IMG/VR virus record: IMGVR_UViG_3300028283_000019
Coordinates: 1-36,554 of that record
Direction: 5' to 3' (one strand)
Length of the DNA: 36,554 nt
Source of the DNA: a virus
Shown here: piece by piece, positions 18,292 to 32,037 of the stretch
Position numbering within the stretch: position 1 is the stretch's first letter
Layout of the letters: each line of letters begins with the position of its first letter
Notes under the pieces: model-generated
What the model saw: only the letters and a program-made list of their open reading frames with translations
Databases searched by the model: none
What the model was told of the DNA's origin: nothing
Program-made: the position numbers and the translations under genes

Positions 18292-19017
18292 TTACATATA
18301 GTTACTTACGTCTATTGTTGCGGAAATGTTTGGTCGGTTGTCGTTGTTCCTATTCGCTATACCTTGATTCACAGCTTGTTTTTCTTGCTCTACCGCTCTG
18401 AATAAAGATTCCCTATTCTCAAGTCCTAAAGTATCAGCACAGTCATAAGCCGCCCAGTTTACAAAGATAGAGTGAGGAATTGAGTTAAAACCAGGCTCTT
18501 TTGTGGTGTCGGTAGCAGTTACATAACTTGGTGTCCTTTGGAAGTAAAACTTTAGACCGCTAGTAACAGAGGTATCAGAAGCAGGATACAACTTAATAAC
18601 ATTATCATTAGTTTTATCATAATACATAGGGTTACCAGATGTTTTTTCAAATTCATCTAAGGCTTGGGGAGAAATGGTGGCTTGGTCAATTTCCTTTAAT
18701 TGCGTCCATTTTCCATTAGCGTCTTTCCAATCAATTCTAGTAAGGGTTAAAATCCTATTACCCTGTTCGTCAGTTAAAAATGAATATTCTCTCTGGTCTT
18801 TGACTAGATTGGTTGTGCCGATAGGCATTTTGGTATGATTTGTGTCGTCCCACTGAAATCTCTTGTCTTTACCAATAAAAATACCTGCAAGCCAGTCCAT
18901 ACAGTCATTTACAGAGCCGACAACACGAGCTAGAGGCCACTGCACACTATCCACACGGCATTTTGCCCTTACTCTTTCTAAAATACCTAGTTGTGTGGAT
19001 GAATTACTGAACTGCAT
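18292..19017 (-). CDS. Head-tail adaptor / tail tubular protein A-like
   Basis: A 241-aa, mainly helical protein with a small beta domain. An N-terminal helix pair (LGILERVRAKCRVDS...VNDCMDWLAGIFIGKD) and the segment GNPMYYDKTNDNVIKLYPAS, then GLKFYFQRTPSYV and a helical end, match the pattern of podovirus adaptors (T7 gp11 / P22 gp4 type). These rings bind the portal and receive the tail hub. A late-type promoter lies just upstream, so it heads the tail transcript. Confidence 0.75.
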   Translation of the reverse strand: MQFSNSSTQLGILERVRAKCRVDSVQWPLARVVGSVNDCMDWLAGIFIGKDKRFQWDDTNHTKMPIGTTNLVKDQREYSFLTDEQGNRILTLTRIDWKDANGKWTQLKEIDQATISPQALDEFEKTSGNPMYYDKTNDNVIKLYPASDTSVTSGLKFYFQRTPSYVTATDTTKEPGFNSIPHSIFVNWAAYDCADTLGLENRESLFRAVEQEKQAVNQGIANRNNDNRPNISATIDVSNYM

Positions 19018-19047
19018 TTTGTTTTAAGTTATTACTGTTATAGAGAA

Positions 19048-19076
19048 ATAATAACACAAAGACATTTTTGGTGCAG
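19048..19076 (-). promoter_or_regulatory. Late promoter before the adaptor gene
   Basis: Minus strand CTGCAC (19076-19071), 17 bp, TATTAT (19053-19048) with TTGTGT before the -10. Its sequence TTCTGCACC...TTGTGTTAnTAT is nearly repeated at 29.58 kb. The -35 overlaps that of the divergent plus-strand promoter. Confidence 0.65.
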
Positions 19077-19080
19077 AAAT

Positions 19081-19108
19081 TTGCAAGATTTTGTGGATGT
19101 GCTATATT
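19081..19108 (+). promoter_or_regulatory. Divergent promoter for RNA A
   Basis: TTGCAA (19081-19086), 16 bp, TATATT (19103-19108) with TGC just before it (extended -10). Six bases later the conserved ATGGTAGTAG begins. The 14-bp near-palindrome TGCAGAAATTTGCA (19072-19085) is shared with the minus-strand promoter. Confidence 0.65.
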
Positions 19109-19114
19109 TAATCT

Positions 19115-19220
19115 ATGGTAGTAGGGCTACCCAGATGCCAATCGGTCATTATATAAGTGTAAGAACCTTTATAGATGGCCTCCCGAGTGAAAGCTCGGGG
19201 ACATCTGTAAGGGTTTTTTC
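19115..19220 (+). ncRNA. Structured RNA A (paralogue of RNA B)
   Basis: Predicted transcript of about 105 nt. A 5' hairpin GGUAG/CUACC (19117-19121 with 19127-19131) is followed by CAG and a spacer. A 14-bp stem then pairs 19164-19177 with 19202-19215 (two G-U pairs), capped by an inner stem CCCGAG/CUCGGG, and T6 follows (19214-19219). The order, the 5' hairpin sequence and the stem shape recur in RNA B at 31.94 kb with compensating base changes. No coding frame fits it. It could instead be a bidirectional terminator element between the sugar module and the tail genes. Confidence 0.6.
19164..19219 (+). terminator. Terminator of RNA A
   Basis: A long hairpin (stem 19164-19177/19202-19215 with an inner GC stem) running into TTTTTT. 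It is strong on the plus strand; on the minus strand the following sequence GGTTCTTAC has a poorer U-run. Confidence 0.75.
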
Positions 19221-19353
19221 ATTTAGTCCTGGGGGGTTTAACAAGGGGACTTTAATAAACTTGTAACCGTTGTGCTGTGTCGGCTAAAATAGACACCGAA
19301 GGGGGAAATTCTCGCACAATTCTCTTTCCGTCCAGTTTACATTAAGAGTAAAT

Positions 19354-19371
19354 GGGGGGGGGGAAGGGGGG
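19354..19371. repeat. Poly-G tract G10-AA-G6
   Basis: Ten G, two A and six G directly after an ATG (19352-19354) that is in frame with the small basic gene starting at 19406. A tract like this is prone to slippage in replication and to error in sequencing. Confidence 0.9.
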
Positions 19372-19405
19372 CTGTAACAACTCGAAAGAAATTCTCATTA
19401 AGAAT

Positions 19406-19558
19406 ATGAAGAAATATACAAGAAGACAACAAATAAGATACTTTAAGAAGATGAGAATAGAACACCCTTTAAATAAGGAGTTAAGTGCTATAAGAATCAC
19501 AGAAAGAAAAGCGAGCCGAAAAAAAGTCACCTTTAAAAAAATTACTGTAATTTTATAA
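19406..19558 (+). CDS. Small basic protein, plus strand, uncertain
   Basis: A 50-aa frame starting MKKYTRRQQIRYFKKMRIEH, very rich in Lys and Arg, so a nucleic-acid-binding or ribosome-associated peptide is conceivable. It is preceded by an A-rich stretch like other starts here. The frame is open back to an ATG at 19352 through the poly-G tract, giving 68 aa. A weak TTGTAA-18-TAAAAT lies near 19.26-19.29 kb. It could be chance coding in a gap, and the opposite-strand hydrophobic frame is its mirror. Confidence 0.35.
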   Translation: MKKYTRRQQIRYFKKMRIEHPLNKELSAIRITERKASRKKVTFKKITVIL

Positions 19559-19625
19559 ATAGCTCTAGTATTTTAGGTTTTAATTCTTTCCAAGATATAG
19601 ATTCCGCCCATTTATCACTTAATCT
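19542..19625 (-). pseudogene. Possible remnant of a glycosyltransferase C terminus
   Basis: Just after the aminotransferase stop, another frame reads SDKWAESISWKELKPKILEL and then ends with TAA at 19542. It resembles the WAEENSWEKLK tail of the GT4 enzyme encoded at 22379-23305. It has no start codon. It may be the end of a deleted glycosyltransferase, or a frameshifted tail of the aminotransferase. Confidence 0.35.
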
Positions 19626-20460
19626 TTACTACCAATCCCCTTTTAGAGTAATAATCAGCCTTTTTACCTACTTTTTGCTTATACATCGGCAAGGAAGAAA
19701 GAGGTTTAAAGAAGGGGCGGGAGTTTTTAATCACTTTCAACATTTCATCTCGCTCCTTTTCAGTCTTATAAACACAGTCATTTACCCAAACCACATCACG
19801 ATAAGGACGACCGTTATCATATTCCTTCTTTCTTCTTAATTTTAGATTCTTTTTGAGTAGTGAAAAACTATATAAAGCGAGTTTGGCTTGGGCGTCTGGC
19901 ATTCGGTAGTTAAAACCAATAAAAGGATGAAAATAATCTCCACGATTGGCTAGTGTTTTTCTTAGGTTAATCTCTTCTGCCCATTTATCGTTATCTGTAA
20001 CAAGCATACCGCCTTCTTCAGCGTTGATTATTTTAGTTGCCTGAAATGACCAGATAGCAATATCCCCAGTAGGTTGTATGCCGTGTCCCTCAGATAAATC
20101 TTCCAGGACTAATAAGTTATGTTTCTTAGCAATCTTTTTTATCTCTTCCATATTACACCTCCTTCCGTAAACGTGAACTGGCATTATTACCTTTGTATTT
20201 TTAGTTATCTTTTTCTCAATTAGTTTTACATTAATGTTTAGTGTATCATCGCAGTCTACAAAGATAGGGGTAGCATTACAGTAAGATACAGCAAAAGCAC
20301 ACGAGGCAAAAGTAAAATCAGGAACGATTACTTCGTCACCTTTTCCAACACCCATAGCTAAGAGAGCTAGGTGCAGAGCAGAAGTCCCGCTATTTAAAGC
20401 AATGGCGTGCTTATAGCCAGTCCATTTTATGAACTCATTTTGTAGTGTTTGGTAGGTCAT
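19615..20460 (-). CDS. DegT/DnrJ/EryC1 aminotransferase, perosamine-synthase-like
   Basis: A 281-aa PLP-dependent enzyme. ALNSGTSALHLALLAMGVG binds the cofactor phosphate, DEVIVPDFTFASCA follows, and D121 in LEDLSEGHG contacts the pyridine. WSFQATK places the Schiff-base lysine at 143, next to the INAEEGGML loop. The family transfers an amino group to keto-sugars. Beside a GDP-mannose dehydratase the expected product is GDP-perosamine. It is about 80-100 residues shorter than usual: about 35 are missing at the N terminus, with a compact C-terminal domain. It overlaps the dehydratase gene by 26 bp. Substrate is inferred from the neighbour. Confidence 0.8.
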   Translation of the reverse strand: MTYQTLQNEFIKWTGYKHAIALNSGTSALHLALLAMGVGKGDEVIVPDFTFASCAFAVSYCNATPIFVDCDDTLNINVKLIEKKITKNTKVIMPVHVYGRRCNMEEIKKIAKKHNLLVLEDLSEGHGIQPTGDIAIWSFQATKIINAEEGGMLVTDNDKWAEEINLRKTLANRGDYFHPFIGFNYRMPDAQAKLALYSFSLLKKNLKLRRKKEYDNGRPYRDVVWVNDCVYKTEKERDEMLKVIKNSRPFFKPLSSLPMYKQKVGKKADYYSKRGLVVKIK

Positions 20461-21853
20461 TGTTTAACATAATTTTTGCAAGTTCTTCAGCCCTTACAAT
20501 AGGACTCCAGCCAAGTATCCGTTTTGCTTTTGAAGCATCACCGCATAAAACAGGAACGTCAGTTGGTCTGTCGTATTCTTTTCCGTGCAAAACTTTAATC
20601 TTAACCCCACTAGCTTTTTCTACATAACCAACAAAGTCTTTAATCGTATGAGTTTCACCAGTAGCGATAACAAAGTCATCGGGCTTATCTTGTTGTAATA
20701 TAAGCCACATTGCTTCGCAATATTCAGGACTGTAGCCCCAATCTCTTGACGCTGTCATATTACCCAATGTCACTTCACCACTAGCAACAGAATTAACTAT
20801 TTTCTTGGTTACGAAATTGTCTCCCCTTCTCGGTGATTCGTGGTTAAAAAGCAAACCCGAAGCAATAAACATATCAAAGGCGTCACGATAATTTTTACAA
20901 ATATTAAGTGCATACAGTTTAGCAGAACCATACGGTGAAACTGGATTTTTCGGTGTATCTTCATTTTGCATATGACCTTCAAGACCAGAAAAGGTTTCAG
21001 ATGTTGATGCGTTATAAATCTTAACCTTTTTGTCCATATCCAGAACCCTTACGGCTTCAAGAACATTAAGCATCCCAACACCCGTTATCTGGGCAGTAAG
21101 CCAAGGATTTTCCCAAGAAACCTGGACGTGACTTTGTGCCGATAGCTGATAAATTTCGTCTGGCTGGAACTTTTTGATTATGTTGATAACTGAAAATGCG
21201 TCAGTAATATCTCCATAAAATAATTCTAAATCATTTCTTATGTGGTCAATTCTCCCAGTATTAAAAGATGAAGAACGCCTCATCATTCCACCTACTTTGT
21301 AACCCCTATCAATCAAAAATTCAGCTAGGTATGAACCATCCTGACCAGAAATTCCAAAAATCAAAGCACGTTTACCTAAATATGGATTTTTTCTATAGCC
21401 GTAAGTGTCGGTTTTCCTATGGCATTTTTCACATAATGTCCTACCATTCGCTATAATATATCTAAGATGGCGATAAAAGGCAAAGGGTTTAATATGGTCA
21501 GCATTTAGTTTTCCGCCCTTCTGTCCACATAAAACACAAGTGAAGTTATCTCTTTTAAAAACAGAACGTCTCCAGTTAACCGCCTCTAATGATTCTCTAT
21601 TTTTTTGATTTGTTGAAGTAACCCCACCTTTCCATAGGGGATGATTTTTACCACGTCTTTTAAGGTTTGGTTTACCGATTTTTGCTAAACTTAAGTTCTT
21701 TCTATGTTCTTCTGTAAACTTTTTTCCTTTATGGCCTAAGCTAATTTTTAATCTTACCTCTTCACTTCTTTTAACACCCTTGAACGGATTAGGCTTGCCA
21801 AACATAGGATTTCCACTTCCCATCATCCTTTTTGATTGATTAGGTCTTTTCAT
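20435..21853 (-). CDS. HNH nuclease fused to GDP-mannose 4,6-dehydratase
   Basis: A 472-aa fusion. Residues ~10-65 contain NUMOD3-like repeats (GSGNPMFGKPNPFKG, TEEHRKNLSLAKIGK). An HNH domain follows: C106xxC109, ADH with H120, C141xxC144H. From ~160 a complete SDR enzyme follows without a new Met: GISGQDG at 167-173, RRSSSFNTGRIDH, AQSHVQVSW, STSE at 283-286, Y308xxxK312 and FNHESPRRG. These are the signatures of Gmd, which converts GDP-mannose to GDP-4-keto-6-deoxymannose. No ATG, GTG or TTG lies at the domain junction, so Gmd is expressed only as the fusion unless translation restarts. ATGA overlap with the upstream methyltransferase gene. Confidence 0.85.
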   Translation of the reverse strand: MKRPNQSKRMMGSGNPMFGKPNPFKGVKRSEEVRLKISLGHKGKKFTEEHRKNLSLAKIGKPNLKRRGKNHPLWKGGVTSTNQKNRESLEAVNWRRSVFKRDNFTCVLCGQKGGKLNADHIKPFAFYRHLRYIIANGRTLCEKCHRKTDTYGYRKNPYLGKRALIFGISGQDGSYLAEFLIDRGYKVGGMMRRSSSFNTGRIDHIRNDLELFYGDITDAFSVINIIKKFQPDEIYQLSAQSHVQVSWENPWLTAQITGVGMLNVLEAVRVLDMDKKVKIYNASTSETFSGLEGHMQNEDTPKNPVSPYGSAKLYALNICKNYRDAFDMFIASGLLFNHESPRRGDNFVTKKIVNSVASGEVTLGNMTASRDWGYSPEYCEAMWLILQQDKPDDFVIATGETHTIKDFVGYVEKASGVKIKVLHGKEYDRPTDVPVLCGDASKAKRILGWSPIVRAEELAKIMLNNDLPNTTK

Positions 21854-22392
21854 TTGTGTTTTATCGCAAAAATATATGAACGACCGATAAACCGTTCAGA
21901 CTTAATAATTTCTACTTTATATCCTCTACTAATAAAATAATCCTCGTCAAACTCCCAGAGATGTTCTGGGTCTTCAAACTCTAATATTGGTGTGGATAAA
22001 ATTACTTTCGTCACGGCTAATCGTTCTAATTCTTTTAAAAAGTTATCTGGGTCTTCAAGGTGTTCAATAACTTCTCCCGCTACAACAACATTAGCAAACT
22101 TATCAGGAATATCTTTTAGATTATTAACGTCAACTAATTGATAGTGAATCTTCGGATATAACTCCCTTGCTTTTTTTAATGTTTCAGGTGAAAAGTCAAA
22201 GCCAATAACAATACTAAAGTTACGCCTAGAATATTCTAAGAACGGAGATAGACCACAACCAACTTCTAAAATAGTATTCCCCACACCAGCCATCTCAGCA
22301 TACTTTTGCTGGCGTAAACCAAAGTCAGTAGCCGTCTGGTGCGTATTCCAATACTGTGGATTATTTATATCTGGTATGTTAAATTTTTTCAT
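21850..22392 (-). CDS. Class I SAM-dependent methyltransferase
   Basis: A 180-aa protein. ILEVGCGLSPFL (about 41-52) is motif I, IGFDFSPETL motif II, YQLVDVNNL motif III, and VVAGEVIEHLEDPDNFLKEL motif IV, the UbiE/Methyltransf_11 pattern. Setting between a glycosyltransferase and Gmd suggests O- or N-methylation of a sugar or polysaccharide. It overlaps the upstream glycosyltransferase gene by 14 bp. The acceptor is unknown. Confidence 0.8.
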   Translation of the reverse strand: MKKFNIPDINNPQYWNTHQTATDFGLRQQKYAEMAGVGNTILEVGCGLSPFLEYSRRNFSIVIGFDFSPETLKKARELYPKIHYQLVDVNNLKDIPDKFANVVVAGEVIEHLEDPDNFLKELERLAVTKVILSTPILEFEDPEHLWEFDEDYFISRGYKVEIIKSERFIGRSYIFAIKHK

Positions 22393-23305
22393 AAATTGAT
22401 TTTAATTTTTCCCAGCTGTTTTCTTCTGCCCATTTCTTACCAGCTAATGAATATTTAGTAATATCTTTCCCGAACCAAGAGTCTATTGTGTTAGCAATGT
22501 CTTGTGGGTCAACGATTGCCGAGTCAAATTCTTTTTCTGCTATCCTTTCTTTTTTGTAACCTTTAATCGGAATCATTGGTTCATTTGGCAACCATTCTGT
22601 GTGTGGTAGTCGTTTAGATACCATACACATCATACCAGCCGAATGGGCTTCTTGAACAGGTAAACAAGACCCACCAAACTTGTCGGGATAAATAAACACA
22701 TCTCCTTCGTCAAACATTGTGGCATACTCAAAATCCCCTATTCTCAAGTCAACACGGGGGTCATTACACGCCAAAGGTATCTGTGAGCGTATAATCAGTT
22801 TAAATGGCGTGGTGGTCAATTTTAGGGCTTCAATTAGCTGTTTAGTGCCATTTCTACCCCCTAAACCACCGTGTCCAGCGTTATGAACGAACACTTGGGC
22901 TTTCTCTCGTAGTTTCCATTTAATTTCTTTTGGAGCAGGAACGGGAATTACTTTAACACTTACACCAAAGTGTATTCTTTCCATAATAGACCCACCAACT
23001 AACTGGTCAGGAATATAAGGCATTCTGCTACACTCATACATTAAGAATAAAACTGTGCGGACTTTTTTCTCTCTGGCTTGTAAAATGTAATTCCAATTAA
23101 AAGGTGTTTCCAAAAACCAAATCTCATCACATTTTTCTAAAAGCTCGTCATAATTATTTACAGCATTAGGATACCATTCTGTGTGATTGACATAACTAGA
23201 ATGTTTCTGAATTAAGACTTCGGTAAACAAACCATTATCAAAAAAAGACTTAGCTTGACGACCCAATCCCTGCTCCGTTGCATAAACCACAGCTCCTTTA
23301 GTCAT
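22379..23305 (-). CDS. Glycosyltransferase (GT4/GT-B-like)
   Basis: A 308-aa protein. A reduced N-terminal Rossmann part (IWFLETPFNWNYILQAREKK) precedes a GT-B donor domain: QVFVHNAGHGGLGGRNGTKQ, FKLIIRSQIPL, then DEGDVFIYPDKFGGSCLPVQEAHSAG with the conserved acidic residue of the EX7E-type loop. The C terminus (WAEENSWEKLKSIYEKI) is typical for GT4. It should transfer a sugar from a nucleotide donor; donor and acceptor are unknown. Confidence 0.8.
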   Translation of the reverse strand: MTKGAVVYATEQGLGRQAKSFFDNGLFTEVLIQKHSSYVNHTEWYPNAVNNYDELLEKCDEIWFLETPFNWNYILQAREKKVRTVLFLMYECSRMPYIPDQLVGGSIMERIHFGVSVKVIPVPAPKEIKWKLREKAQVFVHNAGHGGLGGRNGTKQLIEALKLTTTPFKLIIRSQIPLACNDPRVDLRIGDFEYATMFDEGDVFIYPDKFGGSCLPVQEAHSAGMMCMVSKRLPHTEWLPNEPMIPIKGYKKERIAEKEFDSAIVDPQDIANTIDSWFGKDITKYSLAGKKWAEENSWEKLKSIYEKI

Positions 23306-23747
23306 TTGATTCTAATATTAAGAGTTTTTTGGCAACACGGGTTAGTTCTTTTTCTACTTCGTTCCAGTAGTCAATTCCTAAGTCTCCTACTATCATCTGT
23401 TTCACAACACAACACATCGCAACATCAAACTCTTTGTCTTTAAAAGGTAATGTTTTTAAATCTCCAACAATAAATTCTTTATTGGGGTAAAGTTCTTTTG
23501 CTTTCTCAGTAAAAGCGGGGGCAATATCTACCCCTACATAGTTATCAAAGTAGACAGACATTCTTCCGTAACTGCAACCAGCGTCTAAAACCCTTAATTT
23601 TCTATAAGGTTCGATTGTCTTTTCGTGTGATTTTGTCATCTTGTCTAGGAATACATCTGATACACTAAAAACTGAGTGGTGGGGATTGTTGGTTGGGGCG
23701 TTTTCCAATCTCTCTTTCCAATATTCTGGTTTATTTACTGGTCTCAT
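23298..23747 (-). CDS. Short class I SAM-dependent methyltransferase
   Basis: A 149-aa protein with motif I VLDAGCSYGRMSVYF, motif II YVGVDIAPAFTEKAKELYP and FIVGDLKTLPFKDKEFDVAM (motifs III-IV). It is at the short end for the family, lacking the last strands, but the cofactor site is complete. Starts 17 bp inside the CgeB-like gene. Probably modifies a sugar made by the same module. Confidence 0.75.
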   Translation of the reverse strand: MRPVNKPEYWKERLENAPTNNPHHSVFSVSDVFLDKMTKSHEKTIEPYRKLRVLDAGCSYGRMSVYFDNYVGVDIAPAFTEKAKELYPNKEFIVGDLKTLPFKDKEFDVAMCCVVKQMIVGDLGIDYWNEVEKELTRVAKKLLILESND

Positions 23748-24654
23748 AGTTTTTCATTAACTCAACACAACGGTGTTTATAAGTATAATTGTTTTTAACG
23801 TATTCAAAGCCCGCCCGCCTAATCTTCTCTCGTTCCTTATCGTGCTTTAAATAAAAATCAATCTTGCGACATAAATCTTCAAAGTTTCCTCGCTCATACA
23901 AAACCAGGTGTTCGCCATCTTTAAATTCTTCTTCCAGTCCTTCTACCTTTGGGTGTAAAAGAAAGCCACCACGTCCCAGAGTTTCATAAATACGATTAGA
24001 CCAGTAACGAGGAGAAGGAAATGAATCACCCACGACTATTTTAGTAGAAGCATATAACTCATTGAGTTCTAGCCCACGATATTGCTTTTTACAAGGTTTA
24101 CCTAACCATTCAAAATCAGGATATTTATTCTTCAAGTTTTCTAGTAGATTAGCCCGATTCCCAAAAGCGTCACCACCAACAAATATTAGTTTGTGAGTTT
24201 TAGGTAAATCAAACATAATTGCTTCTTCTCCATATACCCCCTGCCTTAAAAGTTTATGCTTTATCCCTGCCTGTTTAAATTGTTCTTCGTGTCCACCGTC
24301 AGTTGAAAAGACAGTTTCAACATTATACGGAGGTAATTTATTTTTAAGTTTTAATATTCGGTTAGACGGTAAATCAAAATACAAATCAAATAACCAACAA
24401 GCCGTGTTTATTCCTCTCTTTTTAAGTTCTTCAATGAACTCACCTCCCTTACCTGGAGGACAACCTTTAGAAAATAGAACCAGAATAGGTTTTAATAGCT
24501 GAACTTCATCTACGGTGGTAATAACATTCTGAATTAACAGTCTATCTTCTTGATAGTAAACTACATTATATCCAAGTTCTTTTAAGGCTCTTTTGATATA
24601 GAGTTCTGAACTATAACTTTCTTTGAAGTCGCCTATGTAAAGAATTGTAGGCAT
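23731..24654 (-). CDS. CgeB-like glycosyltransferase
   Basis: A 307-aa GT-B enzyme. The N-terminal part (ILYIGDFKESYSSELYIKRA, YQEDR) and the C-terminal SPRYWSNRIYETLGRGGFLL followed by VEGLEEEFKDGEHLVLYE are hallmarks of the spore-maturation CgeB / DUF3880-type glycosyltransferases common in metagenomic phages and bacteria. It ends one base from the next ATG. Donor unknown. Confidence 0.8.
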   Translation of the reverse strand: MPTILYIGDFKESYSSELYIKRALKELGYNVVYYQEDRLLIQNVITTVDEVQLLKPILVLFSKGCPPGKGGEFIEELKKRGINTACWLFDLYFDLPSNRILKLKNKLPPYNVETVFSTDGGHEEQFKQAGIKHKLLRQGVYGEEAIMFDLPKTHKLIFVGGDAFGNRANLLENLKNKYPDFEWLGKPCKKQYRGLELNELYASTKIVVGDSFPSPRYWSNRIYETLGRGGFLLHPKVEGLEEEFKDGEHLVLYERGNFEDLCRKIDFYLKHDKEREKIRRAGFEYVKNNYTYKHRCVELMKNYETSK

Positions 24655-25604
24655 TATTTATGTTTCTTCGAGTGAATCTTTAGTCCTTTTTCTGATTTAG
24701 ATATAAAGTCGCAGGATAAACACTTAAAACCTTCGTAAACTGCCTCTGCTTGGGCTAAAACTGGCTCAGGTGGTGTTTTAACTGGTTCAACAATAGATTC
24801 TTCTACTCTAGTAAATCCACCTCTTTTAAGGGTCTCAGCTACTTGGTTTTCGGGAATATCTACCAAAGCTCCGTGCTTGTTTCTTAAATATACGTATTTC
24901 ATTGGTTTTATAATATTAAATTTCTTACCTTTGCAGTTATCAACCTCTTTATGCAAAGCCTGATAAATATGTTCGTAATTTATGTGGTCAAAATCATCAT
25001 CTTTAAGTCCATTATAATAATCTCTACTTCGGTATTGGGCGTTGGGGTCATATTTCAAATATCTATCTATTTTTTTTTGCCTATCTTCTCTTAACATTAG
25101 ACCATAGTGTTCAAGGATAACAGGAATATATTGTCCTATTTCATAACACCACCTGGGAGCTAAACCACAGTGTAAGGGTCTTCTCTCAAATGCTAAGACC
25201 CCATTCCATCGCCAGATTCTAATGTTGAAAAAAGACCATTTCCTTTTCCACCCATCACCCCATAAGTTCATAATGTATACATACCAAGCATCACCTTTTA
25301 ATTCTTGAATCTCTTTCTTAGTTATTAACAGAACCTCATCGGAGTCCAAGCAAACCATTAAGTCACGAGGTTTGTGAGACAACCATTTCATTAAGCGTTC
25401 CTTAATTTCGTGTTGGTGTAATCCCCATTCAGCATTATCGGCATAGGAATCAAAACCAAACTCTTCCACCATTGCTATTTCTTCTGCTCCTGACTTGTTG
25501 TGAACGATAACTACTTCATCACAAAGTTTCTTTAGACAGTTTAAAGTGTCTCTTAGATAACGTCTAGCTTCGCCTTTGGTTGTGATGCAGTAGCCTGTAA
25601 TCAT
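24654..25604 (-). CDS. GT2-like glycosyltransferase with C-terminal C2H2 zinc finger
   Basis: A 316-aa protein. GYCITTKGEARRYLRDTLNC, VVIVHNKSG and LMVCLDSDEVL (DxD, about residue 87) form a GT-A core. The next 130 residues carry Trp- and His-rich acceptor motifs. About 240-268 is a small domain (YVYLRNKHGALVDIPENQV), and the last 23 residues are a classical C2H2 finger: C-x2-C-x12-H-x3-H (CLSC...HSKKH). A zinc finger on a sugar transferase is unusual and might tether it to a partner. One-base overlap with the next gene. Confidence 0.75.
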   Translation of the reverse strand: MITGYCITTKGEARRYLRDTLNCLKKLCDEVVIVHNKSGAEEIAMVEEFGFDSYADNAEWGLHQHEIKERLMKWLSHKPRDLMVCLDSDEVLLITKKEIQELKGDAWYVYIMNLWGDGWKRKWSFFNIRIWRWNGVLAFERRPLHCGLAPRWCYEIGQYIPVILEHYGLMLREDRQKKIDRYLKYDPNAQYRSRDYYNGLKDDDFDHINYEHIYQALHKEVDNCKGKKFNIIKPMKYVYLRNKHGALVDIPENQVAETLKRGGFTRVEESIVEPVKTPPEPVLAQAEAVYEGFKCLSCDFISKSEKGLKIHSKKHK

Positions 25605-25846
25605 ATAAAAGTACTCTTGACTCCTCCTTGTTCTGCTAGGAACTCTCCTACCATCTTCTTGTAAGCCTCATTTTTCTTGATACTGTCTTTTAAAGTTTCA
25701 ACTTTCAAAAGTATCTCGGCTTTCTTTTTCTTATCACTCTCTTTATCTGCTACCCATTTGAATAAATCAATATGGAAGTTAGCTTTCTCAATTTCTCTAT
25801 TAACAATGAGAATATCACACTCAATTAATTCTTTATAGTTTGGCAT
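25601..25846 (-). CDS. Small coiled-coil protein, unknown
   Basis: An 81-aa protein, charged and helical (MPNYKELIECDILIVNREIE; KKAEILLKVETLKDSIKKN). It overlaps both neighbours (14 bp upstream, 4 bp downstream) and so belongs to the sugar-module transcript. No motif; probably a structural or adaptor peptide. Confidence 0.6.
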   Translation of the reverse strand: MPNYKELIECDILIVNREIEKANFHIDLFKWVADKESDKKKKAEILLKVETLKDSIKKNEAYKKMVGEFLAEQGGVKSTFI

Positions 25847-26195
25847 TTTTTATTGTTTTTTTAAGATTTCTAAACTTTTTACTCTTTGGTAAAGTACCAC
25901 GTTTTACACTCAACTTAATCTCGTTACTTATAAACTCATCAATTTGTTTCTCTACTTTTTTATCTACTCCATCAACTTCCTTGCTAAAGGTTTCAGCATC
26001 AATCATTAACTGGGCTTTATACTTTTGTTCTTGAGTAGCGTCTTTATCTAAAACAATCTTCTTTAAGGCGTTTAACATCTCAATACTAGGATTAACTTTA
26101 ATCATTAATTTATTAGTAAGTTTAACGGGGATAGATTTCTGTATTCTCGCTAATTCTTTAATAATCTCTGGACTTAATTTATCTAATTTTATCAT
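25833..26195 (-). CDS. Lysine-rich helical protein, unknown
   Basis: A 120-aa, helix-rich basic protein beginning MIKLDKLSPEIIKELARIQK and ending with a KSKKFRNLKKTIKN tail. It overlaps the upstream gene by 4 bp. It could be a small DNA-binding or virion protein; nothing recognised. Confidence 0.6.
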   Translation of the reverse strand: MIKLDKLSPEIIKELARIQKSIPVKLTNKLMIKVNPSIEMLNALKKIVLDKDATQEQKYKAQLMIDAETFSKEVDGVDKKVEKQIDEFISNEIKLSVKRGTLPKSKKFRNLKKTIKNAKL

Positions 26196-26740
26196 TGATT
26201 TAATGCTCTTAAAACTTTATCTTTATTACCGCCTGGACAATAAACATTATTCTTTCTTGGCTGTTCTATGTTACCTTTGGCAATTTCTAATTCTGCTTTG
26301 AAAGCCCTATCAACCACGGACTTTTGAATATTAGCTAAACTAGAATTTGTAGAATCAATCTCTTTCTCTAAATCACTAATTATACCTTTGACCTTGATTA
26401 CCTTATCACTGGTATCATCGAGCAACTCTTCAAACTTAAAACTATCAAGGGATTTGAGGTAACGTGTCATATTCATTGATAATGTCTTTACCTTTTCCTC
26501 CAGTTTTATTTTCTCTTGGGCGGAGTTTTTAATTATATCAACATAAGTTCTACCATCAGACACACCAACTATCTTATAGTGTTTAGCGTTGAATTGAGTA
26601 GGGTGTAACATTGAATAGGCATCATTTTCTGATGTAGCAATAATCGCACCATTTTCTCTTTGCATAAACCAAGTCTTTTCCACCTTAGTCGGTGGTTGCT
26701 GTTGAACTTCGTTATTCAAAATAGTTTGTCCTAGTTCCAT
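26192..26740 (-). CDS. Coiled-coil protein, unknown
   Basis: A 182-aa protein. A short beta region (TWFMQRENGAIIATSENDAY) is followed by a long coiled coil (about 75-155) and a PGGNKDKVLRAL end. The beta-plus-coil layout recalls virion fibres or whisker-like attachments, which would suit a position between capsid and sugar genes, but there is no decisive motif. Confidence 0.6.
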   Translation of the reverse strand: MELGQTILNNEVQQQPPTKVEKTWFMQRENGAIIATSENDAYSMLHPTQFNAKHYKIVGVSDGRTYVDIIKNSAQEKIKLEEKVKTLSMNMTRYLKSLDSFKFEELLDDTSDKVIKVKGIISDLEKEIDSTNSSLANIQKSVVDRAFKAELEIAKGNIEQPRKNNVYCPGGNKDKVLRALNQ

Positions 26741-26754
26741 TTATTTATATAATA

Positions 26755-27411
26755 CTACTCTAACAATAATTTAGCAAACTTTGAATCTATTAACGCTGCA
26801 TTCTGAACTACACAGTGTCCTTTAATCTTTCCTTTGATAGGGACTAGGTTTGGTTTCTTATATTCAGGATAACCGAGACGTTCATAACCTAGATTATAGT
26901 TATTAACCCATATACTCCACATTTCAAACGGCACATTGTGTTGGTCACAGAGTCTTTTAATCTCTTTTGCAAACTCAATTTCAATCCCATAGTTAGTAGT
27001 ATCTAGTATCTTCATTAGTTCGGTAGTCTCACTCTTGTCAGTTAGATAGACTTTAATACCACAACGTCTAAAGAAGTCCGCAACATAACTAGCATCTTTA
27101 CCTCCTAGGAATTTAGTAAAGGTTTTAAAACTCTCGGCTAGGTGTGGATGTATTCCAAGACAAGGAGAGTGAACAGCATTAAGAGTACTACAAGTACCAA
27201 CAGGGACAGTTGAATGTATGACGGTGTAAGATGGCTCATGTATTTCTTGATATTTCTTAACTTCTTTTTTAAAGTTTTCATTGTATGGGAAACAAATATG
27301 TATGATTTCATATTTATCAAAATTATTATTAAAATTATCAGTTATATCACCTCCAATAACTTTAAATAAAGAACTACCAATTTCTCCGTTTCCTATGATG
27401 AGACTTTTCAT
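26755..27411 (-). CDS. Reduced nucleotide-sugar-dehydrogenase-like Rossmann protein
   Basis: A 218-aa protein. SLIIGNGEIGSSLFKVI is an NAD(P)-binding GxGxxG motif. YTVIHSTVPVGTCS matches the STVPxGT strand of UDP-glucose/UDP-ManNAc dehydrogenases, a helical dimer region follows (TTELMKILDTTNYGIEIEFA), and KGHCVVQNAAL keeps a Cys like that of the catalytic GGxCxxKD loop. It is half the usual length, so full oxidation activity is doubtful. It probably acts on an activated sugar. A promoter lies across the end of the upstream gene and would make this mRNA leaderless. Confidence 0.65.
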   Translation of the reverse strand: MKSLIIGNGEIGSSLFKVIGGDITDNFNNNFDKYEIIHICFPYNENFKKEVKKYQEIHEPSYTVIHSTVPVGTCSTLNAVHSPCLGIHPHLAESFKTFTKFLGGKDASYVADFFRRCGIKVYLTDKSETTELMKILDTTNYGIEIEFAKEIKRLCDQHNVPFEMWSIWVNNYNLGYERLGYPEYKKPNLVPIKGKIKGHCVVQNAALIDSKFAKLLLE

Positions 27412-27417
27412 ATTTAT

Positions 27418-27446
27418 ATTATACAGTAGTTTTATTTTTGTGTAAA
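27418..27446 (-). promoter_or_regulatory. Promoter at the head of the sugar module
   Basis: Minus strand TTTACA (27446-27441), 17 bp, TATAAT (27423-27418). Six bases separate it from the ATG at 27411, so the message would start at or near its AUG. Confidence 0.55.
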
Positions 27447-27916
27447 GCTATCTTGTCAAGGTCATATCTTTTATGACAAGGAACGCATAAACGCATATAG
27501 TCCGTTAAGTCTCTTTTATATTCACCAGATATATTAGCCCAGTGATACATTCTCTTTTCAGTTGTTCCACAATGTTCACACTTTGAAGGTCTGCCGAGAC
27601 GTCTCCTTATCCATTCGTGTTTAGCTTCAGGAGAAGCGTCAAGACCTTTCCATAGGTAGTTCTTTTCATTTGAAACCTGTTCATAATGTATTCCTTTATT
27701 CCAAGCAACTTGAACACCCTTTAAACCCTTATTCCAGCAAGTTCCAGTGGGTATTCCTTTTTTCTTAGATACAACACCAACCTTCGCATTATTCGTGCAA
27801 TTTCTAGAACAGTATTTTCTAAAATGCCAAGAGAGTTTAGATTCGTTATCTTTTTTATAAAATAAAATATTACACAGAGAACAATTTTTACTTAGCTTTT
27901 CAGATGGACAAGTCAT
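27419..27916 (-). CDS. HNH homing-type endonuclease
   Basis: A 165-aa protein from the ATG at 27916. An N-terminal zinc site (CSLC...HFRKYCSRNC), two NUMOD3-like WNKG repeats (TCWNKGLKG, VAWNKGIHY), then the HNH core: CEHCG...YHWANISGEYKRDLTDYMRLCVPCHKR. This is the free-standing HNH endonuclease type that invades phage genomes. An in-frame GTG at 27940 lies upstream of the -10 of the promoter, so the ATG at 27916 is the better start. It sits directly after the coat gene, a usual homing site, and may have carried the sugar module's regulatory setting with it. Confidence 0.85.
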   Translation of the reverse strand: MTCPSEKLSKNCSLCNILFYKKDNESKLSWHFRKYCSRNCTNNAKVGVVSKKKGIPTGTCWNKGLKGVQVAWNKGIHYEQVSNEKNYLWKGLDASPEAKHEWIRRRLGRPSKCEHCGTTEKRMYHWANISGEYKRDLTDYMRLCVPCHKRYDLDKIALHKNKTTV

Positions 27917-27923
27917 ATAGTCA

Positions 27924-27951
27924 ATTATATGCTTATCCACCTAGAAGTCAA
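27924..27951 (-). promoter_or_regulatory. Early-type promoter between coat and HNH genes
   Basis: Minus strand TTGACT (27951-27946), 16 bp, TATAAT (27929-27924). The spacer contains GTGGATAAG, close to the GTGGATAAC box of the early promoters. Seven bases lead to the ATG at 27916, so the mRNA is probably leaderless. It can drive the HNH gene and read on into the sugar module. Confidence 0.7.
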
Positions 27952-27991
27952 GTAATAGCAGTTATAATACCTACTACTTCACCTATTACCT

Positions 27992-28918
27992 CTAACTCGT
28001 AACTGCGGAATCGTTGGCATTTATCAAAACTGCAGCTGCATCTCTAAGTTCGCAAACTCCGTATATCATGTCAACTACCCCCAAAGTACCAAGATTCTGT
28101 AGTTGATAAGCAACTTGAGTACGAACCTTACCACCATCTCTTGTCTGCATTGCAAAAGCAAAAGCCTCTGGCATAGCAAGTAAGTTACGGTAAGTTGATA
28201 GACCTTTTACAACATTAGTGGATGTGTAAATTGGAATACCATAAACCTGTCCTCTTAGACCTCTTGAACTATCAGCTTTTCCGAAGTTACCATCTCGGAT
28301 AATTGAAAGTTGGGAAGTGTTAAAGGTATAGTACTTAGCGATTGTCGCTACTTGTCTCCAATAAACAAAAGGATGGAAGAAGAAGGCTGCCTTATTCATT
28401 ACATCGTAGTTTAGAGTATCAAGTTTCTCAATAGCTTCTACTATTTCTGCATCAGACAAAACGGTTGCGGTATCACCAACTACGTTAGTTGATAGACCTG
28501 ACCATAAGCCGAAGATTGAAGCCTCAAGAGCATCAATTAAGACGGAAGATGCTACCTGAATATACTTCTCATTGATAGCATATTTCTTGAACATCTGTAC
28601 CATTTCTAGGTCACCAATAATCCAAGCTACATAGATGTGAGTGTTAATGGTTAGAGTAACATCAATCTGAGTTGGAGACTGGTCGACAACACCGTTACCT
28701 TGTGTAGACTGAGTTGAAGCAGTAAACACGTTAGTATAGATGTTTGGAACGTGAATAATATCTCCACCTTCTGTAGCATAAGAGCTAAGGTCGGTAAAGA
28801 AGTTTGAAGCAACAGCATTAGCAAAATTTGGTTTCAACACTAAGTCTGACCATACTTCACCGATGACTGCTACCATATCTGCAGCGGTAAAAGCTGCGGT
28901 TGGGTTTGGAAAAGCCAT
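27992..28918 (-). CDS. Major coat protein (HK97 fold likely)
   Basis: A 308-aa protein with the features of podovirus coat proteins: Ala-rich N terminus, GGDIIHVPNIYTNVF, a long spine helix region (VASSVLIDALEASIFGLWSGL), and the C-terminal GQVYGIPIYTSTNVVKG followed by AMPEAFAFAMQTRDGGKV. It directly follows the scaffold gene, as expected. A 5-bp hairpin TGGGT/ACCCA lies about 8 bp before the ATG and may affect translation of this abundant protein. Confidence 0.85.
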   Translation of the reverse strand: MAFPNPTAAFTAADMVAVIGEVWSDLVLKPNFANAVASNFFTDLSSYATEGGDIIHVPNIYTNVFTASTQSTQGNGVVDQSPTQIDVTLTINTHIYVAWIIGDLEMVQMFKKYAINEKYIQVASSVLIDALEASIFGLWSGLSTNVVGDTATVLSDAEIVEAIEKLDTLNYDVMNKAAFFFHPFVYWRQVATIAKYYTFNTSQLSIIRDGNFGKADSSRGLRGQVYGIPIYTSTNVVKGLSTYRNLLAMPEAFAFAMQTRDGGKVRTQVAYQLQNLGTLGVVDMIYGVCELRDAAAVLINANDSAVTS

Positions 28919-28944
28919 TTTATTGGGTGATTAACCCATAAGGA

Positions 28945-29475
28945 CTATCCTAACTTTTCCTTCTTATATTTCTCGTATGCCTCTTCCTTTTCATCGGCAG
29001 AGAGCGGAGCTTTTTTAGTTGGAAGTTGGAATCCTGATGAGCGTGAGGCACGTGGGGTATTGTCGGCTACTTTCTTCTGACCTCGGATTGCTTGCAATGC
29101 ACCTTTAATGGCGACATCATCTAAAGCGTCCTTAGTTGGTTTGGAATTTATCTTAAAGACAAAATCTGTTTCCTCTGGAGAAAGCCCGTTCTCGTATCCA
29201 AACTGCCTTTTCGTTTCAGCTAGTTTGAGTTCTGCAACGGTAGACCGTATATCATCGTGCTTCGTTTCTAAAGGCTTCTCTGCCTTTGCTTTGAGTGCTT
29301 CTTCAGCTTTCTTCATTCTAGCAAAGACTTGTGAATACTGGCTTTTAGGCACAGTTTCCACTTGAGGTTCGGCTATTTCCTCATCCAGGTTAATTTCAAG
29401 CTCTGGTGCTATAGTAGTTTCCTCTACTGGGGTCTCATTTGTGGCTGAGTCCTGACCTGTAATGGTTTCAACCAT
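28945..29475 (-). CDS. Scaffolding protein
   Basis: A 176-aa, acidic, mostly helical protein with a disordered N terminus (about 1-45), a coiled coil (FARMKKAEEALKAKAEKPLE), a small helical domain and a basic C terminus (KKAPLSADEKEEAYEKYKK) that would bind the coat protein. Its place between portal and coat is the standard one. Driven by a late-type promoter with a 70-nt leader holding a 6-bp hairpin. Confidence 0.8.
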   Translation of the reverse strand: MVETITGQDSATNETPVEETTIAPELEINLDEEIAEPQVETVPKSQYSQVFARMKKAEEALKAKAEKPLETKHDDIRSTVAELKLAETKRQFGYENGLSPEETDFVFKINSKPTKDALDDVAIKGALQAIRGQKKVADNTPRASRSSGFQLPTKKAPLSADEKEEAYEKYKKEKLG

Positions 29476-29513
29476 TGTTTTTAGAAGTTTATGCAGAGCT
29501 TCTATGCTGTTAT

Positions 29514-29535
29514 GCTAGGAATATGCTTACCTAGC
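29514..29535 (-). promoter_or_regulatory. Hairpin in the scaffold/coat mRNA leader
   Basis: GCTAGG (29535-29530 read on the minus strand) pairs with CCTAGC (29519-29514) around a 10-nt loop, about 40 nt before the scaffold ATG. It may stabilise the late message. Confidence 0.4.
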
Positions 29536-29551
29536 GAGCTGTTATGTATTT

Positions 29552-29580
29552 ATATTAACACAAGTATTAAAAGGGTGCAG
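29552..29580 (-). promoter_or_regulatory. Late promoter before the scaffold gene
   Basis: Minus strand CTGCAC (29580-29575), 17 bp, TAATAT (29557-29552) with TTGTGT before the -10. The stretch TTCTGCACC...TTGTGTTAATAT nearly repeats the promoter at 19.06 kb. Confidence 0.65.
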
Positions 29581-29582
29581 AA

Positions 29583-29852
29583 TTATCGCCAACCAGTTCC
29601 TAGTTGTCTTTTCTTACCTGCAATATTAGTTTGTTTCATACCAGCACGGGTAGCTGGTGATACATAGCCAATCTTATCAGCGATAGTATCTACAACTTTC
29701 TTACCCATAGGATTCATATCACGATAAATCTTTTGTCCCATAGTCATACCAGCAGAACTAGGAGCTTTCTTAGGAGCAATAGTAGCTTGAGCCATTAGTT
29801 GTGCTTTTGCTGCTTTGAATTGTGGTGATAAACGATATGATGCCCTAGACAT
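29583..29852 (-). CDS. Small basic structural-region protein
   Basis: An 89-aa protein rich in Lys, Ala and Met (MSRASYRLSPQFKAAKAQLM), ending GKKRQLGTGWR. I chose the ATG at 29852, immediately after the upstream stop; ATGs at 29864 and 29894 would overlap that gene. A basic protein between portal and scaffold could contact DNA or the scaffold. No family recognised. Confidence 0.6.
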   Translation of the reverse strand: MSRASYRLSPQFKAAKAQLMAQATIAPKKAPSSAGMTMGQKIYRDMNPMGKKVVDTIADKIGYVSPATRAGMKQTNIAGKKRQLGTGWR

Positions 29853-29853
29853 T

Positions 29854-30069
29854 TTATTCTTCATCCCCTCCATTATTTTTTCGGGAGAGAACACTTAACT
29901 TCTTAATAAATAAATCTTCAATAACTTGAATTGCTAACAGACGGGTTTCACTTGTGTAATCGTAATTGCGGACATCTGCTATCTCACCTTGTAGTTCCCT
30001 TAAATAAGTAACCACATTTTTACGGGTGACTTCGTTCTCGGCTATAAATCTGATTAGTTCTGTATTCAT
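29854..30069 (-). CDS. Small helical protein, unknown
   Basis: A 71-aa helical protein (NTELIRFIAENEVTRKNVVT) with an acidic end. It overlaps the portal stop by one base (TAATG type). Small helical genes at this site in podoviruses are often virion-assembly factors; nothing more can be said. Confidence 0.6.
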   Translation of the reverse strand: MNTELIRFIAENEVTRKNVVTYLRELQGEIADVRNYDYTSETRLLAIQVIEDLFIKKLSVLSRKNNGGDEE

Positions 30070-31844
30070 TATGCGTTTAGACCTGCCATTTGTTCGGCAT
30101 TATTCATTGAAGTAGGAATAGCAGTTGCCCCCTGTTGCCCTTGAGCCATAGCATTAGGCATTTGACCCATTGGGGACTGAATACCAGCTTGTAGGGGCAT
30201 TTTCTCGCCTGTCAGGGCTAGGATACGCTTGAGGACACTCTCTGCGTTTGGATTACCTGTCTGAATCATTGATTGATACAGGGTAGTAAGGGTTTCCATT
30301 TTCTTGACGACATCAGTGGATTCACCTGTTACTTCTATAGCTACTTGGTATTTAAGATTCTTCCAGTAGTTTTCTTCAAAAGAATAGAAGTCAGATGTTT
30401 TTAGGGATAGCAGTAAATCTACTTGTTCATTTAGGGTGTCTAGTCCTTCAAAATCACCTTTCAAAACCTTTTCTACAAGCATCTGTCCTTTCATATATTC
30501 TTTCTTAGCCATTCGGAGTGTATCAAAGCCGTCTTCACCATCAAAGAAACCTACTTTACCAGCTTCCTTGTTATCTCGTTCAAAGATAGGGATTAAATCT
30601 TCTGAACATAGGCGAGTAAAGAATAAGCCAAGTTTCTGTCTCTTTAATTTATAGTAAGATTGAACGGTATTAGTCATCATTGCACCAAGGCGGAATGACG
30701 TGCCAGAAGGTAGGGCTTCACCTGTTGCACTTTCAAAAGTAAATGAGCGTTGATTAGCGTTCTCTTCTACAGCCGTATCAATAGCCCCAGCGTCAGCGTT
30801 AGAGCGATTCACTGTATCAACACGGGTCAAAGCACCATTAGCTTCAATCTTTAATACATCACCGTCCTTTACTTCACGGACCAGGTTGTTAGCTACTTCA
30901 TCAGACATAGACTGGAAGATATTTTTAGATGACCAAGCTAAAGCGCGTTTCCTTAAATTGAAAATCATATTCCTTGCTACTTGGTTGCCAAAGTTCTTTT
31001 CAACTTCACCTTCACCAAGCCAGCGACCAGCTAACTTCTTGTAATGCACTTCTTGGTAAGGGAGTTCTTTAACTTCTTCACAGAACAATAAAGCACCGTC
31101 AGGGTCTTTAGTATCAGCTTCAGGGGCTAGGATTGAGATTACTTTGATAGATTTCTTGTCATCACCTTCTTCAACCGCCTGTCCTTTGTAACTCTTATAC
31201 CAATCAAACGGAACATAGCCATAGCGTTCATACACAGTAGTTTTAGTATCCCATTCACCTTTTAAATCAGTTAAATCCCAGTCCTTGTAGGCTTCCATAT
31301 CACTGCGTAGCATATCTTTATGCTCTTCAATGACATAACGAGCTACGTTAAGGGATTCAGCGTCCTGTTGGTTGCGTAGGGTGCATAAATCAACTCGTTG
31401 TAAGTCTCTTCCAGCTCTTTTAACCACAATAGTTCCATACTTAGGGAAGTCATCTACCATATCGTTTATCATTTCACCGAAGTATTTCTCTTTAGCCCAG
31501 CGTCTAAATAACTTTCGTAAAAGCAATGCCCCGTAAATAGAATCATCTGATTCAGGGATAAAAGTAAAGTCCTTTACATCAAGGTCAATATTCTTGGAAG
31601 CAGTTTCAGCACGGAAAGACACTAGGTTTAGGAAGATTTTTGGTGTGCCGTCAGTGTCCTTTTCACCTCGTTCAAACTTTGAGCCACAGTAATAGTCAAT
31701 AGTTTCTAAGGTATCAAACTGGGAGAACTCATAAGGTGAGCGTTTGCTTTGCTTAGAGCCTTGACCGATTTTTACTTTGTTTTGAAAATAGTCATCAAGT
31801 TCCTCTTGCAAACGAGCAAATATATTAAAATCTTTGTTAGTCAT
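30069..31844 (-). CDS. Portal protein
   Basis: A 591-aa protein, within the podovirus portal range. An N-terminal helical part with IDYYCGSKFERG and PKIFLNLVSFRAETASKNIDL leads to the wing (MINDMVDDFPKYGTIVVKRAG), the helical stem/crown region (LGAMMTNTVQSYYKLKRQKLG) and a Gln/Met/Pro-rich C terminus (SPMGQMPNAMAQGQQG). The dodecamer would sit at one vertex and thread DNA during packaging. A late-type promoter gives a leader of about 22 nt. Confidence 0.8.
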   Translation of the reverse strand: MTNKDFNIFARLQEELDDYFQNKVKIGQGSKQSKRSPYEFSQFDTLETIDYYCGSKFERGEKDTDGTPKIFLNLVSFRAETASKNIDLDVKDFTFIPESDDSIYGALLLRKLFRRWAKEKYFGEMINDMVDDFPKYGTIVVKRAGRDLQRVDLCTLRNQQDAESLNVARYVIEEHKDMLRSDMEAYKDWDLTDLKGEWDTKTTVYERYGYVPFDWYKSYKGQAVEEGDDKKSIKVISILAPEADTKDPDGALLFCEEVKELPYQEVHYKKLAGRWLGEGEVEKNFGNQVARNMIFNLRKRALAWSSKNIFQSMSDEVANNLVREVKDGDVLKIEANGALTRVDTVNRSNADAGAIDTAVEENANQRSFTFESATGEALPSGTSFRLGAMMTNTVQSYYKLKRQKLGLFFTRLCSEDLIPIFERDNKEAGKVGFFDGEDGFDTLRMAKKEYMKGQMLVEKVLKGDFEGLDTLNEQVDLLLSLKTSDFYSFEENYWKNLKYQVAIEVTGESTDVVKKMETLTTLYQSMIQTGNPNAESVLKRILALTGEKMPLQAGIQSPMGQMPNAMAQGQQGATAIPTSMNNAEQMAGLNA

Positions 31845-31873
31845 TTATTTAAATGGTTGGCTGATATGAGATA

Positions 31874-31902
31874 AGTCTAGCATAGAGTTTCTATTCTTGC
31901 AG
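31874..31902 (-). promoter_or_regulatory. Late promoter before the portal gene
   Basis: Minus strand CTGCAA (31902-31897), 17 bp, TAGACT (31879-31874) preceded by TGC (extended -10). It is one half of an exact 56-bp dyad, 31877-31932, whose other half is the plus-strand promoter of RNA B. Confidence 0.65.
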
Positions 31903-31906
31903 AATT

Positions 31907-31935
31907 CTGCACAAATTGTTAGACTATGCTAGTAT
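31907..31935 (+). promoter_or_regulatory. Divergent promoter for RNA B
   Basis: CTGCAC (31907-31912), 17 bp, TAGTAT (31930-31935) preceded by TGC. Six bases later ATGGTAGTAG begins, as at RNA A. The -35 overlaps the portal promoter -35 inside the perfect palindrome TGCAGAATTCTGCA (31898-31911). Confidence 0.65.
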
Positions 31936-31941
31936 ATTTCT

Positions 31942-32037
31942 ATGGTAGTAGTTCTACCCAGTAAATATACATACAAGTAAAAACCTTTACAGTATGTCCC
32001 CAGCAAAGTGTTGGGGGTTTACTGCAAGGGTTTTTAT
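31942..32037 (+). ncRNA. Structured RNA B (paralogue of RNA A)
   Basis: Predicted transcript of about 95 nt. A 5' hairpin GGUAG/CUACC with loop UAGUU is followed by CAG. A 16-position stem pairs 31979-31994 with 32020-32035 (one A-C mismatch), with an inner stem CCCCAGC/GUUGGGG, then a T5 run. Relative to RNA A the upper stem differs by paired changes (AU to UA, GC-rich cap rewritten) while the lower stem and 5' hairpin are conserved. No coding frame. On the minus strand the same hairpin also ends in U5 and would stop transcription from the terminase genes before the portal promoter. Confidence 0.6.
31979..32035. terminator. Bidirectional terminator of RNA B / terminase operon
   Basis: The long hairpin has A5 on one side and T5 on the other, so both strands end in a U-run. 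It separates convergent RNA B and the minus-strand terminase operon. Confidence 0.7.

Follow-up and report, generated by a model that had tools for sequence, protein, structure and literature searches.

The window analysed here, a complete virus record of 36,554 bases, carries its late genes on the minus strand and, on the plus strand, two related units at 19115-19219 (sRNA-1) and 31942-32035 (sRNA-2). Both units consist of an extended -10 promoter, six bases, a 5' hairpin of the form AUGGUAGUAG-NN-CUACCCAG, a variable linker, an ACCUUU...AAGGGU stem and a U5-U6 run. sRNA-1 lies in the gap that separates the adaptor gene from the upstream operon, and sRNA-2 in that which separates the portal-position gene from the TerL region; both are intergenic, with no overlap with coding sequence. 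An earlier sequence-only reading of this DNA was confirmed for the coordinates and strand of the two copies, for their hairpins and ACCUUU...AAGGGUUUUU stem, and for the extended -10s (TGC-TATATT in sRNA-1, TGC-TAGTAT in sRNA-2), which six bases separate from AUGG. From these features, the units appear to be two paralogous ncRNA genes (~94-105 nt) of an uncultivated tailed phage. Elsewhere in the window, the left edge (1-216) is formed by a 12-base tandem repeat (CCATAGCCAGAG-like), and a single ORF on the minus strand (20435-21853) encodes a GDP-mannose 4,6-dehydratase fused to an N-terminal part that resembles HNH/NUMOD3 endonucleases.

The sRNA-1 promoter (19079-19108, plus strand) is composed of the box ATTTGCA (19079-19085), 14 spacer bases and the extended -10 TGC-TATATT (19100-19108), and differs from the late class defined below by one box mismatch and by the spacer of 14 instead of 15. 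The predicted transcript of ~105 nt (19115-19219, plus strand) contains the 5' hairpin GGUAG-UAGGG-CUACC at 19117-19131 and an intrinsic terminator, with the ACCUUU...AAGGGU stem followed by U6, at 19165-19219. Back to back with this promoter stands the late promoter of the adaptor operon (19048-19078, minus strand; TTCTGCA-N15-TGTTATTAT), with a predicted start near 19041. The first gene of this divergent operon (18292-19017, minus strand) codes for the adaptor (PF24175 SU10_adaptor, E 1.7e-9). A small plus-strand ORF without significant family match is found beyond the sRNA-1 terminator at 19407-19558.

The sRNA-2 promoter (31905-31935, plus strand), with TTCTGCA at 31905-31911, 15 spacer bases and TGC-TAGTAT at 31927-31935, is a perfect match to the late class. 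Its predicted transcript of ~94 nt (31942-32035, plus strand) carries the 5' hairpin GGUAG-UAGUU-CUACC at 31944-31958 and an intrinsic terminator at 31983-32035, the complement of which also has a U5 tail, so that this terminator may work in both directions and also end the upstream operon. The late promoter of the portal-position gene (31874-31904, minus strand) has its box at 31898-31904, which adjoins the sRNA-2 box and forms with it the palindrome TGCAGAATTCTGCA (31898-31911). The first gene divergent from sRNA-2 codes for a protein of 591 aa (30069-31844, minus strand), for which no match was found in Pfam, PHROG or PDB. The sequence-only reading had placed the two units opposite the starts of an adaptor and a portal transcript; the adaptor was thus confirmed by its family match, and the portal is assigned by its position after TerL only.

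The late promoter class was derived by aligning the coding-strand starts in the window phage and in its nearest relative found, contig IMGVR_UViG_3300025087_000184 (G1), with which it shares 95% protein identity for the portal-position protein and 84% for the adaptor. This class reads TTCTGCA-N15-TG(T/C)TANTAT-N6-A (also TTCTGCA-N15-TGNTANTAT). Zero-mismatch members are located at -29582, -19078 and +31905 in the window and at +21970, +30771 and -30760 in G1. Upstream of the adaptor gene of both phages, and of the 28945-29475 gene and the corresponding G1 gene, the matches are exact; those upstream of the portal-position gene are near matches in both phages, and weaker ones are located upstream of the 13866-15554 gene and its equivalent in G1. 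With up to two mismatches, the window contained 8 matches for a Markov mean of 4.1 and a maximum of 8, which is close to chance, so that only the zero-mismatch promoters and those placed at gene starts carry weight. The sRNA-2 and G1 sRNA promoters are exact class members on the strand opposite to the late operons, and an own late-class promoter is kept in all three sRNA copies, with the box mismatch and N14 spacer in sRNA-1. This arrangement supports the earlier proposal that the two structured RNA genes are paralogous, have promoters of their own and are divergent from late transcripts.

The arrangement, in which two transcripts leave a short region in opposite directions, recalls the bidirectional promoters with a shared -10 of Warman, Grainger and colleagues; whereas the starts of these E. 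coli promoters are 10-23 bp apart (PMC12825309), the divergent predicted starts in the three units are ~74, 75 and 85 bp apart with separate -10s, the boxes abutting in the window and being 10 bp further apart in G1. The two promoters of each pair are therefore separate, and each must have been maintained on its own. This bears on the explanation that the units are insulated by-products, in which a second core promoter next to the shared box fires away from the late genes, the terminator only blocks antisense transcription into the upstream operon and the RNA is functionless. The abutting boxes of the 31898-31911 palindrome are what such an origin would give, but the distance between the starts and the separate -10s are not those of a shared -10 promoter, and further members of the late class, such as the perfect match at 29552-29582 (minus strand), stand without a divergent sRNA.

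An orthologous unit was found in G1 at the corresponding place, before the adaptor gene. At the portal position of G1 the unit is absent and a different gene abuts, so that at least one relative does without sRNA-2. The -10 region, GTAGTANNNCTAC and ACCTTT do not change among the three copies; the linker varies in length and in sequence. The loop is the sole difference between the 20-nt 5' hairpin segments of the two window copies. The 20-mer ATGGTAGTAGNNCTACCCAG was found exactly twice in the window, compared to 0.05 occurrences expected by chance (with up to 3 mismatches), and none of 100 shuffles had two copies. The two window copies show no covariation in the 5' hairpin; one compensatory pair comes from G1, in which the outer pair is A-U instead of G-C, changed on both sides. 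Covariation is limited to this single pair because only three copies are known, and the same count was reached by 168 of 500 shuffles; the G1 change supports the 5' hairpin without proving it. A homologue keeping the 5' hairpin, on which the sequence-only reading had made its proposal depend, thus exists, with a compensatory change, but in one example only. The paired changes that this reading had noticed in the upper stems of the terminators are expected of any intrinsic terminator and so bring little weight to selection on RNA structure.

With this comparison, the by-product explanation gains from the absence of the unit at the G1 portal and from the free divergence of the terminator upper stems and linkers. 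It is opposed by the 5' hairpin, which would be useless to an insulating terminator and is yet the most conserved part of the unit, with a compensatory change; we regard this explanation as unlikely, while giving it serious consideration. Alternatively, the inverted repeat GGTAG-N5-CTACC (about +3 to +17) could serve as a DNA operator, a protein-binding site controlling the plus-strand promoter, the RNA hairpin being incidental. A symmetric site just 3' of the start would be in a classic operator position, and a symmetric half-site change from GGTAG to AGTAG would look compensatory too. However, the site is missing from the coding-strand late promoters and is found in the window in the two sRNA units only, conservation of the loop is asymmetric, being seen on its 5' side (UA), and an operator would explain neither why the terminator is directional nor why a transcript is made; we consider this explanation improbable. 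We give almost no credence to a leaderless micropeptide starting from an ATG at +1 (MVVGLPRCQSVII and MVVVLPSKYTYK). In both window copies this ATG coincides with the predicted start and opens the reading MVVxLP, in a phage that shows no Shine-Dalgarno usage, but the G1 orthologue has ATA for ATG, through the same change that keeps the hairpin paired, and the remainder of the peptide is unrelated in G1. Regarding translation starts in the window phage, Shine-Dalgarno complementarity below -4 kcal/mol was observed at 10% of the starts vs 22% of random sites, the starts being A/T-rich.

Folding of the predicted sRNA-1 and sRNA-2 gave -44.1 kcal/mol (z ~-5.8) and -38.1 kcal/mol (z ~-5.7), with no shuffle equal. 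The plus RNAs were more stable than their complements by 6-14 kcal/mol in the three copies (-44.1 vs -31.9 kcal/mol for sRNA-1, -38.1 vs -31.8 for sRNA-2 and -43.4 vs -29.8 for the G1 RNA) and contained more G-U pairs (7 vs 2, 4 vs 1 and 7 vs 4, respectively). The minus-strand tails are weak in sRNA-1 and in the G1 unit and reach U5 in sRNA-2. Because of the better plus folds, the G-U pairs and the stronger plus U-tracts, the plus strand is taken as the RNA-gene strand, and the units look like directional RNA genes. A discrete short transcript ended by a strong intrinsic terminator is what the sequence predicts for both. The sequence-only reading had also suggested duplicated bidirectional terminators; the complement is weaker by the 6-14 kcal/mol given above, U5 is present on both sides in copy 2 only, and the 5' hairpin is conserved as well, all of which speaks against this suggestion. 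The antitermination-type RNAs that it had put forward fit poorly too, since the unit closes with its own terminator and copy 2 has no plus-strand gene after it.

The unit could also be an attenuated 5' leader of a plus-strand mRNA, with regulated readthrough expressing a small plus-strand gene. Same-strand small ORFs do follow copy 1 (19407-19558) and the G1 copy (30217-29937), in equivalent positions, and some TerL relatives have a coding-strand promoter, leader and terminator directly before the portal-position gene. The genes after copy 2, however, are on the opposite strand only, and the two ORFs, ~190-400 nt past the terminator and without significant family match, are not recognisably homologous; we therefore find a leader very improbable as a general explanation, a leader or attenuator role being possible for copy 1 alone. 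The G1 ORF (minus strand, which is the sRNA strand there) has zinc-ribbon-like CPKC and CKPCGH motifs. In the same contig, the major capsid homologue is split (22635-24271) into two ORFs, 22635-23324 and 23987-24271, the first of which matches the N-terminal part of the protein encoded in the window and the second its C-terminal part. An insertion, an intron or an assembly problem are candidate explanations for this split, and no Rfam intron match at gathering score was found in the region.

The distribution of the units was then considered beyond the two phages. The exact hairpin pattern gave no match in viral contigs or genome contigs. The promoter-plus-hairpin pattern gave 12 matches in viral contigs, the whole unit being kept in G1 alone, and the hairpin-linker-terminator pattern gave 31 viral and 7 genome matches which, G1 aside, were coding or chance-looking. 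Covariance model R1 was scanned over 26 records (57 loci); it retrieved the three known copies at 75.7-83.1 bits and no others, the next best hit being at 22.1 bits (E 2.7). That the earlier reading recognised no known family agrees with the Rfam comparison, in which the units had no gathering-level match and weak matches in permissive scans only. Distant blastn against annotated phages returned short chance matches only. No unit was present directly before the adaptor gene in more distant adaptor relatives (43-59% identity) or before the portal-position gene in TerL relatives. With no further copy in IMG/VR, GTDB species genomes, Rfam or annotated phages, the sRNA family is at present narrow as judged by these searches, with three copies in total; the third copy, in a relative, gives it the appearance of a small, narrowly distributed phage RNA family.

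Immediately upstream of the portal-position gene, and on its coding strand, four TerL relatives have a short leader between a sigma70-like promoter and an intrinsic terminator (L109, 11389-11474; L110, 2709-2796; L112, 7616-7762; L116, 1300-1447). For L109, L110 and L112, the U-run extends up to the ATG of this gene. The L112 and L116 leaders are 82% identical, with a 5' hairpin, and had no gathering-level match in Rfam and no match in annotated phages. These portal-position leaders are candidate late-leader attenuators.

Lambda OOP RNA is antisense to the cII coding region. This pO transcript of lambdoid phages is short and terminated, has its own promoter and is read against neighbouring genes (PMC12197685). 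The units described here are likewise short, terminated, read from their own promoter and against their neighbours; unlike OOP, they overlap no coding sequence, exist as two paralogous copies, belong to a late promoter class and have a conserved 5' hairpin at their start. The lambdoid 6S RNA of pR'-tR' is the same-strand leader of the late operon, the terminator of which is overcome by Q. StxS, a derivative of the lambdoid late-leader RNA, was reported to be trans-acting (PMC12197685). With the 6S RNA and StxS the phage units share a short RNA, a late promoter and an intrinsic terminator, but they run away from the late operon. HK022-type put RNAs, which have hairpins near the 5' end, act in cis on terminators of the downstream operon. 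The units resemble them as short phage RNAs with a hairpin near the 5' end, and differ by having their own terminator and no operon after copy 2. By these comparisons, the unit is predicted to work like short terminated phage RNAs generally, outside the OOP, put and bidirectional-terminator types.

The best reading of these data is a narrow family of putative late-expressed phage sRNAs in which the 5' hairpin is the constrained module, and we consider it somewhat probable that the unit encodes a discrete functional late sRNA. Each sRNA would be driven by the phage late promoter class, and, as its promoter and that of a late operon stand back to back, the two would be switched on jointly; transcription would start at the A just 5' of the hairpin and stop at the dedicated terminator before any gene. 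While the promoter class, the hairpin, the terminator, the polarity of the strands and the orthologue with its compensatory change are read directly from the sequences, the production of the sRNAs, their late timing and their action in trans are what we infer. As the hairpin is conserved and the linker varies, the most likely role of the hairpin would be to protect the 5' end and/or to bind a partner, protein or RNA, while virions are being produced, and pairing of the linker with one conserved target is less likely; duplex scans of the sRNAs against the phage gene starts gave nothing above shuffled controls. If the sRNA is functional, a trans-acting, hairpin-based mode would be an evenly balanced expectation. 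A more speculative and rather doubtful proposal is that, in a host without Shine-Dalgarno initiation, the 5' hairpin of the duplicated late RNA titrates or recruits an RNA-binding protein and tunes the virion genes from the mirror side of their promoter.

The late promoter class offers a handle for annotating this phage group, and the paired divergent design predicts co-expression of each sRNA with its late operon. To our knowledge, few RNAs have been described from phages with genes devoid of Shine-Dalgarno sites. Should the RNAs of the present uncultivated phage, which has such genes, be produced, they would represent a lineage-specific sRNA family wired into its late regulon.
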